DNA of 22,007 nt from a virus, in IMG/VR virus record IMGVR_UViG_3300018429_000012, positions 1 to 22,007 of that record; one strand, written 5' to 3'. This document shows positions 3,209-9,980 of this stretch, in pieces (position 1 is the stretch's first letter; every line of letters starts with the position of its first letter). The notes under the pieces were generated by a model. The model worked only from the letters and a program-made list of their open reading frames with translations. It ran no database searches and was not told the DNA's origin. A program made the translations under genes and the position numbers.

Positions 3209-3783
3209 CCGCGTGGACGCAGCTCGACCTGTTCGGCGACGTGCTGTCGGCCGAGCGGCAGCGTCACCGCGACGCACTCACCTGCTTGCGTGACGCCGTA
3301 CCCGAGGCGCTGGAGGTCGTGGTCGACCTGGCGTACCGGTGGCCGAAGGACACCCGCGACCCGCGGGCAAGCAGGCCGTGGGCGTACTGCGTGTGCCGCG
3401 CCGGTCTCCGGTTCGAGGCCACGGACGAGTGGTGGTCCGGCGCGTACGTCCGCGGCGAGACGTGGGGATGGAACCGCGCCCCGGCACAGCTGGTCACCTG
3501 GGCCGAGCTGTCCGCGCTGGTCGGTCAGGACCCGCGTCGCGCGGAGCTCGCGACGTGGGCGGCGGACCTTCCGGACCCGCGGTGGCGGCTGCTGACGCGG
3601 CCGTTCGAGCTGTACCCGAACCCGGGCGGTTGGCATCCCGGCTACATCCGCGGTGACCACGAGCACGAGCTGTGGCAGGCCCGCCGGCGTGCCTGGCAGC
3701 TCGTCCTCGACCTGCTCAACGACGCGATCGACACGATCGCCGATCGGGGCGGCTGGCAGCCGCAGGACGGTGGTCCCCGATGA
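3205..3783 (+). CDS. Phage protein of unknown function with N-terminal QLDLF motif
   Basis: GTG 3205 forms a GTGA overlap with the preceding stop. The 192-aa protein starts WTQLDLFGDVL; QLDLF at residues 5-9 or so matches the pentapeptide by which many bacterial proteins bind the DnaN sliding clamp. The remainder is rich in Trp, Arg and acidic residues (PWAYCVCRAGLRFE, WWSGAYVRGETWGWNRAP, RRAWQLVLDLLNDAIDTIADRGGW) with no catalytic motif I recognise. Actinophages commonly encode such Trp-rich accessory proteins. The clamp link is inference from the motif only. Confidence 0.72.
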   Translation: MTAWTQLDLFGDVLSAERQRHRDALTCLRDAVPEALEVVVDLAYRWPKDTRDPRASRPWAYCVCRAGLRFEATDEWWSGAYVRGETWGWNRAPAQLVTWAELSALVGQDPRRAELATWAADLPDPRWRLLTRPFELYPNPGGWHPGYIRGDHEHELWQARRRAWQLVLDLLNDAIDTIADRGGWQPQDGGPR

Positions 3784-4085
3784 GCCATCCGAACGTCAAG
3801 CAGCGCTTGACGCCGAATCGACGAACTCGGGTGGTGGAGAACGACGAGTTCGGGTCGTTCTTCCTGCGCATCCTGCGGGCGTTCAGGAAGCGGGTCGCGC
3901 ACGGCGACATCGAGGCTTTGACCGCGCTGTGGCAGGTCCGGGCCGAGCTGGATCGGGAGATCCACGCCGCGGTGACCGGGCTGGTCGCCGAGGGGTGGTC
4001 CTACGCCGAGATCGGCAAGCGCACCGGCATGACCCGGCAGGCCGCGCACCAGCGGTGGGGCAAACCCGCGGCCGGTGACGGGTGA
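3780..4085 (+). CDS. Helix-turn-helix DNA-binding protein
   Basis: ATG 3780 overlaps the upstream TGA as ATGA. The 101-aa product has a basic N-terminus, a helical middle, and a C-terminal helix-turn-helix: LVAEGWSYAEIGKRTGMTRQAAHQRW, which has the 'S-x-x-E-I-G-x-x-x-G-x-T-R-Q-A-A-x-Q-R-W' pattern of sigma-70-region-4-like and related regulators. It probably binds DNA as a small transcriptional regulator. It sits directly before the methyltransferase gene, with its stop overlapping that gene's GTG. The long ORF extension upstream of 3780 lies inside the preceding gene and is not a plausible start. Confidence 0.78.
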   Translation: MSHPNVKQRLTPNRRTRVVENDEFGSFFLRILRAFRKRVAHGDIEALTALWQVRAELDREIHAAVTGLVAEGWSYAEIGKRTGMTRQAAHQRWGKPAAGDG

Positions 4086-5323
4086 CCGCCGCGGCCGAGG
4101 CGTCGACGGCGGCGCCGGGTTGGGAGGCGCTGCCCGAGCTGGTCGACGAGCAGCTGCTTGTGGTGGCCGGCTGGCCGGAGGAGCAGGTGGTCGACGAGGC
4201 CGATCGGGCGGCGGCGGCGATCGCCGCCAGCGCCGACCAGTTGTGGCACAGCCGGCCCGGCCGGGCCCGGGGCCTGCTCGGTGCGGTGGCGACCGGCCTG
4301 GCGATCCTGGCCCGGCGGCCGCGCGGCGTGACGGTGCTGGGCGGGCATTGGTGCGCCCGTCCGCATGTGGGCTGCCCCGGCCGGGGTGACCCGGTGGTGG
4401 TGGCGGGCTCGGGTGTCGGTGTGCACTACACGCCGTGGTGGATGGCCGAGCGGGTCACCCGGGACACCCTGGACGCATTGTGTGCTGAGCCGGGTCCGAT
4501 GCAGACCTGGGACACCGGCTTGTGGCGGGGCCGGCCGCTGGACCAGGTGGCGGGGCTGCGGGTGGCGGACATCGCCTGCGGATCCGGGATGTTTCTGCTC
4601 GCGGCGGCGGCCTATCTGACGGAGCTGGTCGTGGGCACGCTGCCGATGCTGGACCCGGCGCAGCTGCGGCGGGCGGCCCGGCTGGCCGTGGTGCGCTCCA
4701 GTGTGTACGGCGTCGACCTCGACCCGCTGGCGGTCGAGTTCGCCCGGCTGGCCCTGGCGTTGTTGGTGCCGCTGGACGACGTCGACGACGACGTCCACGC
4801 GCACGTGGTGCGCGGCGACGCCCTGGTTGGCCCGGGGTTCGGCCTCGGTGCCCAGGGGCAGGGCATGTCCGGATTGGACTTCGCCGCGGCGTTCCCCGAC
4901 ATCGACCGGGCCGGCGGCTTCGATGCCATTGTGGGGAACCCGCCGTTCTTGGGCGGGCTGAAGATCACCGGCCGGTTCGGCACCGACTACCGCAACCACC
5001 TTGTGCGGCACATCGCCGGCGGCGTGACGGGCCAGGCCGACCTGGCCGCCTACTTCGTGTTGCGCGCCTTCGACCTCGTCCACCCGGACCGCGGTCAGCT
5101 CGGGTTGATCACCACGAACACCATCGGCCAGGGCCACACCCGCCGGGTCGGCCTGGACCAGATCGAGGCCCGCGGCGGCACCATCCGCCAGGCCGTCAAA
5201 CACGCCCCCTGGCCCACCGACACCGCGTCCGTGGCCTACGCCGTGGTGTGGATCAGCCGCCCCCCGGTGAGCAACCCGATGGCGCTGCTGTTGGACGCCA
5301 TCCCGGCGCCGGAGGGGACATGA
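4082..5323 (+). CDS. N6-adenine DNA methyltransferase, apparently lacking a target-recognition domain
   Basis: Three methyltransferase landmarks are seen in order: H115-Y-T-P (the x-YTP motif of Eco57I-like and type I/IIG enzymes), motif I D163-I-A-C-G-S-G for S-adenosylmethionine, and motif IV N286-P-P-F289 for adenine-N6 transfer. A VYGVDLDPLAVEFARLAL segment fits motif II. The protein ends about 125 residues after NPPF, soon after KHAPWPTDTASVAYAVVW, whereas many relatives continue into a long recognition region. At 413 aa it is therefore short. There is no nuclease motif N-terminal to the methylase core, so it may protect phage DNA rather than restrict. GTG 4082 forms a GTGA overlap with the HTH gene. 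Confidence 0.87.
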   Translation: MTAAAEASTAAPGWEALPELVDEQLLVVAGWPEEQVVDEADRAAAAIAASADQLWHSRPGRARGLLGAVATGLAILARRPRGVTVLGGHWCARPHVGCPGRGDPVVVAGSGVGVHYTPWWMAERVTRDTLDALCAEPGPMQTWDTGLWRGRPLDQVAGLRVADIACGSGMFLLAAAAYLTELVVGTLPMLDPAQLRRAARLAVVRSSVYGVDLDPLAVEFARLALALLVPLDDVDDDVHAHVVRGDALVGPGFGLGAQGQGMSGLDFAAAFPDIDRAGGFDAIVGNPPFLGGLKITGRFGTDYRNHLVRHIAGGVTGQADLAAYFVLRAFDLVHPDRGQLGLITTNTIGQGHTRRVGLDQIEARGGTIRQAVKHAPWPTDTASVAYAVVWISRPPVSNPMALLLDAIPAPEGT

Positions 5324-6015
5324 CCCTGCGCGAACGCCGCGACCTCTGCCGTCTCCCGGCCGGCACCGACCCCGTCCACCACGGCTACTCCCTCGATCGG
5401 CTGGCCAAGGCCGCCACCTACGCCGTCACCAGCTCGTACTCCCACACCGGCGACTACAGCGAACGACTCGAAGCCGCCTGGCTGGCCGTGGTCGAGCACC
5501 TGGTCGCCGCAGCCGACCCACCCGACTGGTACGACCTCGTCCGCGCCGGCCAGAACGCCGTCGCCGTGGTGGCCCGCGCCGAGCACCGCGACACCGACGC
5601 CCCCAGGGCGACCGTCTACTGGACCCAGGTCACCCGGCACACCGGCGACCACGCCCCCCACATCGTCGACCAGCTGGCCATCCGGCAAATCCTCACCCGC
5701 ATCCCGGACGGCCAGCTCGCCGCCGTCCAGGCCCTCGCCGACACCGACGACCACCTGGCCGCCGCCCACCGTCTCGGCCTCACCTACGACGCCTACCTGG
5801 CCCGGCTCGGCCGCGCCCGGCAGCGGGTCCTGCGGCTGTGGCACGAAGGCGAGGCGCCGTCCCGCCCCTGGGGCAACGACCGTCGAGTACTCCGCCACGG
5901 CGAACCACCGTCCGCGGAGCGACGCCCGGCGACGGCTCGGCGACGCCGCTCCCGGCAGCGGGTCGAGCGCACCCGGCCCGGCCCGGCCCAGCATGACCTC
6001 GGGGAGGCCGGGTGA
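5320..6015 (+). CDS. Sigma-70 region-4-like DNA-binding protein
   Basis: ATG 5320 overlaps the methyltransferase stop as ATGA; codons upstream in this frame lie antiparallel to the methylase reading and are not used. The N-terminal half (SLDRLAKAATYAV..., ERLEAAWLAVVEHLVAA, WYDLVRAGQNAVAVVARAEHRD) resembles the region before the HTH in actinophage sigma-like proteins. Next comes LAIRQILTRIPDGQLAAVQALADTDDHLAAAHRLGLTYDAYLARLGRARQRVLRLW, which follows sigma region 4 logic (arginine-rich recognition helix). The C-terminus is a basic Arg-rich tail. It may act as an activator or sigma-like factor. No region 2 is visible, so it is unlikely to be a complete sigma factor. Confidence 0.75.
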   Translation: MTLRERRDLCRLPAGTDPVHHGYSLDRLAKAATYAVTSSYSHTGDYSERLEAAWLAVVEHLVAAADPPDWYDLVRAGQNAVAVVARAEHRDTDAPRATVYWTQVTRHTGDHAPHIVDQLAIRQILTRIPDGQLAAVQALADTDDHLAAAHRLGLTYDAYLARLGRARQRVLRLWHEGEAPSRPWGNDRRVLRHGEPPSAERRPATARRRRSRQRVERTRPGPAQHDLGEAG

Positions 6016-6983: not shown

Positions 6984-8090
6984 GTGTCATGGGTACGTGG
7001 CGGCGACACGGCAGGGACCCACCCCGCGTTGCTCGCGGTCCGGGAGCACCCGGACCACGACGACCGCCTGCTGAACGAGGTCCGTGGGTTCCTGCACGGC
7101 TGCGCGGCGTTGGCGTCGGCGCACGACCAGGACTACGTCGTCACCCGCGGCACCGCCATCGAGGTCGGGGGGACGTCGCGGGCGGCCGCGTTGATCGAGG
7201 TGGCGTTGTGGGCGGGGCTGTTCACCGACACGGTGCCGTTGGACCGCGGCCGCGTCGGGTACGTGCTGATCGACGACCCGAAGTTCCTACACATCCGCAC
7301 CAAGGCGGCCAAGGAGTGGGAGGCCCAACGCAAGGCCGACTCGTCGAATCTCGCGCTGACGGTGCCGGTGCGGCTGCGCGACGGCGACGGCTGCCGTTAC
7401 TGCGGCGTGGTGGTGACCTGGGGCGACACCCGCTCGGCGCGGGGCGGCACCTACGACCACCGCCAACCCGGCCAGCGCGGCACCCTCGACACCGTGGTGG
7501 TCAGCTGCCGCGGCTGCAACGCCGGCCGCGGCACCGACCTCGGCGCGGACGCCGCCTACCCGCTGATGCCCGTACCCGCCCAGCCGTACTACTGCGGCAA
7601 GACGGCCACCTGGCTCACCGCCAACGGCCACCCCACCTCAGCCACCACCGCGCGACCCGCCACCCAGCCGGACACCGCGCACACCACCACCCCGCGACCC
7701 GGCAACCAGCCCGGCACCGCGCCCCCACTCCCGCGACCCGCCACCCAGCCGGCCACCGCGACAGCGCGACCCGCCACCCCGGCGGACCCCGCGCCCCGCA
7801 CCACCCCGCGACCCGACACCCAGACGGACACCGCACACCGCGCGACCCGGCCCCGGCCGGCCCCCGCGCCCACCCCGCGACCTGAGCCCAACTCAGCTAC
7901 CGCGCCACCACCGGTTCCGCCGGAACCAGCAGGTGCACCGACTGCCGGAGCCGGCTCCGCCGGGTCGGGACGGGATCGGGACGGGTCGGGTCCAGGAACA
8001 ACACAGACCCCCCGGCCAGTTCGCGCTCGCCGTCGGGCACGTCGTGGCCGCACCACACCCCCATACCCCACAGGAGCCCCATCGCCATGA
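6984..8090 (+). CDS. HNH protein with replication-protein-like N-terminus and Pro/Thr-rich repeat tail
   Basis: A stop at 6978-6980 and GTG 6984 fix the start; the MSWVR opening resembles actinophage proteins that begin 'MsWVrlDd'. The first ~125 residues form a helical region (LLNEVRGFLHGCAALASAHDQDYVV, AALIEVALWAGLF). Residues 137-179 make an HNH/zinc module: C137-x2-C140, D158-H159, and C175-x2-C178-N179. From about residue 215 the protein is Pro/Thr/Arg-rich, with a repeated RP-x-TQP-x-TA pattern, ending in a basic segment. DNA nicking or cleavage is likely from the HNH motif. The tail is low complexity and may be disordered; its last ~60 codons are the least certain part. The stop overlaps the next ATG. 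Confidence 0.75.
   Translation: MSWVRGGDTAGTHPALLAVREHPDHDDRLLNEVRGFLHGCAALASAHDQDYVVTRGTAIEVGGTSRAAALIEVALWAGLFTDTVPLDRGRVGYVLIDDPKFLHIRTKAAKEWEAQRKADSSNLALTVPVRLRDGDGCRYCGVVVTWGDTRSARGGTYDHRQPGQRGTLDTVVVSCRGCNAGRGTDLGADAAYPLMPVPAQPYYCGKTATWLTANGHPTSATTARPATQPDTAHTTTPRPGNQPGTAPPLPRPATQPATATARPATPADPAPRTTPRPDTQTDTAHRATRPRPAPAPTPRPEPNSATAPPPVPPEPAGAPTAGAGSAGSGRDRDGSGPGTTQTPRPVRARRRARRGRTTPPYPTGAPSP
7651..7900 (+). repeat. Degenerate tandem repeat encoding a Pro/Thr-rich tail
   Basis: Copies beginning with cgcgaccc occur at 7651, 7693, 7732, 7765, 7807 and 7841, plus a diverged cgcgacct at 7876. Consensus is roughly cgcgacccgccacccagccgg followed by acaccgc. Spacings are 42, 39, 33, 42, 34 and 35 bases: the first five stay in frame, while the sixth copy is shifted by one base. 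Variable spacing and coding continuity argue for slippage within a gene rather than CRISPR. Confidence 0.75.
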
Positions 8091-9563: not shown

Positions 9564-9594
9564 TCCCGCCATCGGGTACACGTGTGCCCGCAGC

Positions 9595-9618
9595 CAGCCC
9601 CGACCTCGGTCGGGGCTG
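9595..9618 (+). terminator. Hairpin after the early-gene block, terminator-like
   Basis: Arms 9595-9604 and 9609-9618 pair over 10 bp around the tetraloop ctcg. It sits 31 bases after the stop of the DUF7341-like gene and before the likely start of the HNH gene, as expected for a rho-independent terminator. No T tract follows. Confidence 0.6.
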
Positions 9619-9638
9619 TGGTGTGTCGGGAGTCGGTG

Positions 9639-9980
9639 GTGGTGAGCCGGGTCTGCCTCGACCGCGGGAAGCCTGGTTGCGTGACGTTCACCTCGGGCGG
9701 GTCGCGGTGTGGTCCGTGCGTGAGTCGGCGTCAGCGGGCGCGGGACGCGCAGCGGGGCACGGCGCACGAGCGGAGCTACGACGCCGAGCATCAGGCGCTG
9801 CGCGCCGAGCTGTTGCCGCTGGCCATCGGCACACCGTGTCCACGGTGTGGGCGGCTGATGTTGGAGGGTCAGGCCCTCGACCTCGGTCACCCGCTCGGTC
9901 GGCCTCGCGCGGCGGATCCGTCGAGCCGTGCGGATCACATCGAGCACGCCCTATGCAACCGTGGTGCGGGCGGCGGTTGA
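9639..9980 (+). CDS. HNH endonuclease of the DNA-packaging module
   Basis: The product (113 aa) has a basic, Cys-containing N-terminus (CLDRGKPGC, CGPC), the short motif RGTAHERSYDAEHQALRAELLPLAIGTPCPRCG, and then the core LGHPLGR ... DHIEHALCNRGAGG. Together these give the conserved His, the Asn of the CN pair and the zinc cysteines of phage HNH nucleases. Such enzymes are commonly encoded beside terminase and take part in cutting concatemeric DNA. The start is uncertain among GTG 9636, 9639 and 9642; GGGAG at 9628-9632 favours the latter two. The ORF stays open upstream to 9582, but that would place the hairpin inside the gene. The stop lies within a 16-bp palindrome. Confidence 0.85.
   Translation: MVSRVCLDRGKPGCVTFTSGGSRCGPCVSRRQRARDAQRGTAHERSYDAEHQALRAELLPLAIGTPCPRCGRLMLEGQALDLGHPLGRPRAADPSSRADHIEHALCNRGAGGG

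Follow-up and report, generated by a model that had tools for sequence, protein, structure and literature searches.

A predicted phage adenine DNA methylase reduced to its catalytic core, with an N-terminal HWC domain and a sigma-like neighbour

The window, the whole 22,007-nucleotide stretch of viral DNA that was analysed, encodes a 413-aa protein that appears, from its sequence and predicted fold, to be an N6-adenine DNA methyltransferase stripped down to the catalytic core. Adenine methylases of this kind usually act at a single motif, which is set by a recognition domain of their own or by an S subunit. Here the target-recognition domain (TRD) of the relatives is absent, and the core is preceded by a small module that we call the HWC domain. 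Our best explanation, tentative as a whole, is that a partner, such as the sigma-like protein encoded by the adjoining gene, may have taken over targeting by way of the HWC domain. A phage core whose TRD was lost, likely at least two times in the family, bears on how little a DNA methylase must keep to stay useful, and this core comes with a candidate partner that is open to experiment.

The methylase gene and its motifs

The source is a 22-kb contig of a virus whose hosts are bacteria of the soil type, with clear portal and terminase genes, as identified by profile matches. Distant relatives of the terminase (<60% identity) are found in 1987 phage records, mostly actinobacterial, and the top-scoring ones belong to Streptomyces and Gordonia phages. 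Two HNH endonuclease genes lie at 6984-8090 and 9582-9980 of the window, the second just 5' of the terminase genes. The methylase gene belongs to a series of overlapping genes, with the following features.

3780..4085, plus strand: small HTH protein gene, 5' of the methylase (phrog_686 HTH DNA binding protein, 2e-10)
4082..5323, plus strand: predicted compact DrmMI-lineage adenine DNA methyltransferase with N-terminal HWC domain, 413 aa, GTG start
4418..5257, plus strand: catalytic core, aa 113-392, from family matches, alignments and structure comparison
4424..4435, plus strand: HYTP motif, aa 115-118, from sequence; invariant or nearly so in 42 aligned rows
4568..4588, plus strand: motif I DIACGSG, SAM binding, aa 163-169, from sequence and the 42-row alignment
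4937..4948, plus strand: catalytic motif IV NPPF, aa 286-289, invariant in 42 rows
5320..6015, plus strand: sigma-like gene, 3' of the methylase, homologue of the phage neighbour of stand-alone HWC genes

By profile search, the methylase family matches are well beyond chance. The Pfam families Eco57I (4.1e-17), MmeI_Mtase (5.7e-16) and N6_Mtase all match above cut-off, and the PADLOC profile for DrmMI of DISARM matches at 3.8e-75. The reading frame and the three motifs given in the first-pass annotation (x-YTP, here HYTP; D163-IACGSG; N286-PPF) were all found where it had placed them, and its figure of about 125 residues after the catalytic motif is exact when counted after NPP. Residues G113, Y116-P118, D163, G167 and N286-F289, among others, are invariant in an alignment of the window protein with 41 relatives. 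K294, invariant in two alignments, is aligned with K173 of CamA, which according to PMC8187626 contacts the phosphates around the flipped adenine. The presence of xYTP, motif I and NPPF on a class I fold places the protein among the N6-adenine methyltransferases of the Eco57I / N6_Mtase type.

The gene overlaps each of its neighbours by 4 nt. The sequence gtga at 4082-4085 joins the end of the HTH gene to the start of the methylase, and atga at 5320-5323 joins the end of the methylase to the start of the sigma-like gene. These overlaps with both neighbours show that the methylase has its natural gene end. Truncation by a frameshift was ruled out, the methylase stop overlapping the next start and no frame-shifted remainder following it. 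The upstream HTH protein also gave a Sigma70_r4_2 match at 0.0014, below the cut-off.

Absence of a target-recognition domain

The AlphaFold2 model of the 413-aa protein (pLDDT 81, pTM 0.83) aligns with CamA 26-312 (Z 24), M.TaqI 21-238, M.BseCI 12-299 and MmeI 171-616. The M.TaqI match ends at what we take to be the border between the core and the TRD of that enzyme. CamA consists of a catalytic domain, residues 1-320, and a TRD, residues 320-577, as described in PMC8187626. The aligned part of CamA is catalytic and the TRD border lies at 320, so that the window protein ends at the catalytic-domain border, as judged from the alignments with CamA, M.TaqI and MmeI.

The Pfam family MmeI_TRD was found after the core in all three full-length DISARM relatives (P0003, P0004 and P0005), versus none of the four compact cores (window, Amycolatopsis, L016 and L021), and the window protein gave no such match at E<=1. 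From GNPPF to the end, the window protein has 129 residues, versus a median of 482 and a minimum of 297 in 56 long DISARM-type relatives, which were picked from 84 by a length of >1200 aa and clear motifs. The structural border and the distribution of MmeI_TRD uphold the earlier observation that a C-terminal recognition domain is missing although relatives have one. Charge is weak evidence here; the net charge of the window protein is -10, but the C-termini of DISARM enzymes carry a net negative charge as well. In PMC9142583, ACACAG is reported as the site marked by a DISARM adenine methylase, and therefore the ancestors of the compact core were probably site-specific.

The HWC domain

The region ahead of the core, the N-terminal 110 residues, proved by HMM and alignment to contain a separate module at residues 15-102, which the first-pass annotation did not mention. 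The name HWC domain is coined here. The family is defined by a helical part together with GxHxCxxxHxxC, and the window protein has both.

4124..4387, plus strand: HWC domain, aa 15-102, predicted to fold into three helices with a hairpin and a Cys/His knuckle, from HMM, 7-phage alignment and model
4346..4375, plus strand: HxCx3HxxC motif, candidate metal site, H89, C91, H95 and C98

A tblastn search with the N-terminus as the query found small hypothetical proteins of Streptomyces plasmids, matching at up to 63% over 38 residues (E 3e-5), and several pairwise HWC matches extend over 80-96 residues at 36-41% identity. An HMM of 14 stand-alone proteins, with the window excluded, matched window residues 15-102 at E 4.4e-21, a value somewhat flattered by the fact that part of the 14 had been found with the window as query. 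The window N-terminus scored 72.7 bits, versus 19.8 bits for the best of 5000 shuffled N-termini. The same HMM matched the Amycolatopsis protein at 1.2e-14, and the HWC-like domain of that protein has lost most of the Cys/His ligands. The Cys/His motif is present in 7/7 plasmid or genome members of the HMM, all found by homology; the seven phage rows were selected by the motif, and the conservation of the ligands among them simply follows from that selection. The ligand spacing differs in some members that had been retrieved by homology: L174/L199, L204 and L210 (HWCxxPGC).

Stand-alone HWC proteins occur in actinophages, in Streptomyces plasmids and in genomes, including 12 of 249 Streptomycetaceae genomes and, among 394 Actinomycetes genomes, four convincing cases and one doubtful one. 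A pattern search of phage contigs gave 18 matches, of which 12, from 9 different sequences, are genuine HWC proteins. The other six were discarded, four as chance matches and two as having no in-frame motif. Also set aside were two fused HWC-HYTP pattern matches in viral contigs, both due to chance and with in-frame stops, and a possible relationship between the N-terminal part and the DISARM region that precedes HYTP, for which no convincing match was obtained.

Apart from the HTH part of the HTH fusion, the HWC members that were tested matched no family in Pfam or PHROG. A sequence-profile search with HWC gave no convincing match to a solved DNA-binding protein, and the domains range from near neutral to acidic, with net charges of 0 to -10. 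Both the domain and its combination with the core are absent from the family libraries and the open-access literature that were searched, the latter yielding no paper on an HWC-methylase fusion or an HWC-type domain.

HWC also occurs in other arrangements. In L176 (1228-2466, with further copies in L178 and L179, three copies in one genome), HWC shares a reading frame with an XRE-type HTH (HTH_3 1.4e-11), which suggests a pairing of HWC with DNA-binding modules. In L180 (4724-6082, also in L185 and L190, three related viral contigs), HWC (1.6e-11) is fused to half a methylase, which has the SAM-binding part and breaks off shortly ahead of where NPPF would lie, and the stretch 3' of this half-enzyme is a repeat of the beginning of the gene on its upstream side. 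In L182, a case of a stand-alone HWC gene immediately 3' of a methylase was dropped, since the methylase piece is out of frame and is no operon partner.

The sigma-like neighbour

The gene beside phage HWC genes often starts with HGYxLxDLDxLA and is homologous to the sigma-like gene of the window (31-39% identity). An HMM made from three such phage genes, with the window excluded, finds the window gene at 9.6e-41. A sigma-like homologue is present in 7/9 HWC phage records; in six of them it lies within 601 bp and has the same orientation, and in the seventh the distance is 1.8 kb. By comparison, 158 control loci totalling 1.65 Mb gave a single sigma-like match, at E 6e-4. The crude chance of such nearness, when multiplied, is ~1e-12, a rough figure since phage genes cluster by function.

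With respect to ECF-type sigma factors, sigma region 4 (Sigma70_r4_2) was detected in three of four homologues, the best at 4.5e-7, and not in the window's own protein. The low-confidence model of the latter (pLDDT 65) retrieved mostly sigma factors in Foldseek, with weak matches (best E 0.012). The first-pass annotation had passed over this gene as sigma-like and not a recognition subunit. From the neighbourhood of HWC genes, its product is instead the best partner candidate. HWC, a small phage module that had not been described and is accompanied by a conserved sigma-like gene, also offers a way into a group of unannotated actinophage genes.

The 150-kb Amycolatopsis plasmid has no such sigma-like gene, and the HAC-type stand-alone proteins of Streptomyces plasmids adjoin GP88 and not a sigma-like gene. 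In L167 (4692-5928), L171 (3695-4931) and similar Streptomyces linear plasmids, the HWC-type (HAC) gene runs into the beginning of the gene that follows. In L167, the one scanned, this following gene is GP88, with a weak DUF5131 match; a DUF5131 gene is found at 345-1400 of the window.

Compact cores and their relatives

Four different intact proteins of <470 aa were found among the loci compared. Besides the window protein, these are WP_237596570.1 from a linear plasmid of Amycolatopsis sp. FU40 and two TRD-less DrmMI-type cores on viral contigs of 63-64 kb, L016 6090-6902 (~270 aa) and L021 7086-8252 (~388 aa), the protein starts of both being our choice. The Amycolatopsis protein, with 397 aa and 43% identity to the window protein, has all methylase motifs intact. 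Homologues of the same length with known, self-contained specificity would speak against the first-pass annotation; this protein supplies the length, which is half of what such a refutation calls for. L016 and L021 have neither an HWC domain nor a sigma-like gene, and therefore the core can persist without such a partner.

Compact cores are uncommon and belong to mobile DNA. Of 394 Actinomycetes genomes, 61 gave family matches at E<=1e-10, with no compact core among them; short chromosomal frames in G222, G359, G052 and G004 turned out to be interrupted or contig-end pieces. Protein-only scans for close relatives gave no match, nor did the viral scan with the A1 query. The tblastn matches came from 58 records (57 plasmid and 1 phage), six of which were examined.

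In a tree of 83 cores, the window and Amycolatopsis proteins are sisters with support 99/88, and L016 and L021 group together (95/96) inside another DISARM branch. The supported branches force at least two changes to the compact form. Judging from this tree, which has long branches, compact cores likely arose at least twice.

Two further loci with DrmMI-type genes carry viral labels. L043 (MT836194.1, "Bacteriophage sp." from human faeces) has a helicase-like gene ahead of a DrmMI-type gene of full size and looks like bacterial DISARM, not phage. The viral contig L030 and L111, a genome contig of Cereibacter ovatus, have an identical DrmMI-type core, and L030 may be a prophage or a bacterial stretch.

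Proposed mechanism and alternative explanations

The explanation we prefer, still somewhat short of probable, is an m6A DNA methylase guided by a partner. The core would flip and methylate adenine in DNA, and the choice of site would not be made by a built-in TRD. The HWC domain would be a docking module through which a partner, most likely the adjoining sigma-like protein, brings the enzyme to DNA, as HsdM depends on HsdS. In the phage, the methylase may serve self-modification against restriction, or it may mark the binding sites of the partner. Of the three options offered by the first-pass annotation, specificity from another protein thus gains, HWC being kept beside sigma-like homologues, whereas the idea of a recognition part packed into the N-terminal 110 residues loses ground because this region is a module that is found as a separate protein and has a near-neutral charge. 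A narrower form of the preferred reading, in which HWC ties the core to the sigma-like factor and methyl marks are placed at the binding sites of the factor or at transcription start regions, is doubtful. If true, guidance by a sigma-like protein would represent a novel means of positioning DNA methylation.

The third option, low specificity, we consider unlikely but nevertheless a strong rival, because the Amycolatopsis protein is without the ligands and without the sigma-like gene, the plasmid HWC lies beside GP88, and L016 and L021 are without both HWC and the sigma-like gene. The enzyme would methylate adenines with little preference for sequence and make the phage DNA broadly restriction-resistant, HWC being a stabilising or replication-docking part. 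The absence of the TRD favours such an enzyme, as do L016 and L021, TRD-less cores without an HWC domain or sigma-like gene, and a tree that needs at least two origins. Precedents are M.EcoGII from an E. coli prophage region (PMC11551740) and the plasmid enzymes M.EcoGIX and M.BceJIII, which act on single strands. According to PMC11551740, however, M.EcoGII belongs to the beta class and has a helix-turn-helix recognition domain and a large positive surface that serves unspecific binding, whereas the window protein is of the NPPF type, has no such domain and is net negative, the charge being weak evidence.

That HWC itself reads DNA, as a compressed N-terminal recognition module with self-contained specificity, is improbable. 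The possible metal knuckle of four Cys/His residues and the similar layout of the two HWC-fused enzymes would suit this, but the domains are near neutral to acidic and exist as separate proteins, the Amycolatopsis copy is without the ligands, and no profile match to a solved DNA-binding protein is convincing. Protein and RNA methylases can have NPPF-type motifs as well, and the substrate might be protein, RNA or a single strand instead of double-stranded DNA, in transcription control with the sigma-like factor. The retained adenine-methylase features (HYTP, NPPF and K294) and the top structural matches, which are DNA adenine methylases, make this less probable still, despite the linkage to the sigma-like gene and a PrmC match (0.0003, far below its cut-off). 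Least probable is a decaying or dominant-negative DrmMI remnant, perhaps interfering with host DISARM. All motifs are intact in the window and Amycolatopsis proteins, the reading frames are coupled, and an HWC domain has been gained, so that the changes are not only losses; the DISARM ancestry and the half-enzyme without NPPF in L180/L185/L190 speak for a remnant.

Comparison with known systems

The DISARM class 1 protein DrmMI has a homologous catalytic core (35-47% identity to 41 aligned relatives). Unlike DrmMI, the window protein is without the ~570-aa front part, the ~110-aa internal insert and the C-terminal part with the TRD, so that the long DrmMI architecture with an MmeI-type TRD is not present. 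As for a drmD/drmA/drmB operon, the window proteins scanned nearby, on a record that is a fragment, included no drm-type helicase and gave only phage or unknown families. The Amycolatopsis protein WP_237596570.1, the sister in the tree, shares the HWC-like domain and the core without TRD, but its Cys/His motif is mostly lost and it has no sigma-like neighbour.

The fold of the type I protein HsdM aligns with the model (2okc, 3lkd and 2ar0). HsdM is a core whose specificity is supplied by a second protein. No HsdS-like protein or Methylase_S match was found among those window proteins that were scanned, again from a fragment. The gamma-type enzymes CamA and M.TaqI have the same catalytic fold and motifs, but they continue into a TRD after the core, whereas the window protein stops at the border. 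M.EcoGII may be alike in role, the broad methylation of mobile DNA; it differs as a beta class enzyme with an HTH-type recognition domain (PMC11551740), whereas the window protein is of the NPPF type with no room after the core.

In type IIG/IIL enzymes such as MmeI, an endonuclease domain and a TRD are combined in one chain. The window protein does not have this combination, and its model aligns with residues 171-616 of MmeI only. Classified on its sequence, the window protein is a reduced DrmMI/MmeI-type adenine methylase, and because the TRD is absent it falls outside both DISARM DrmMI and type IIG/IIL.
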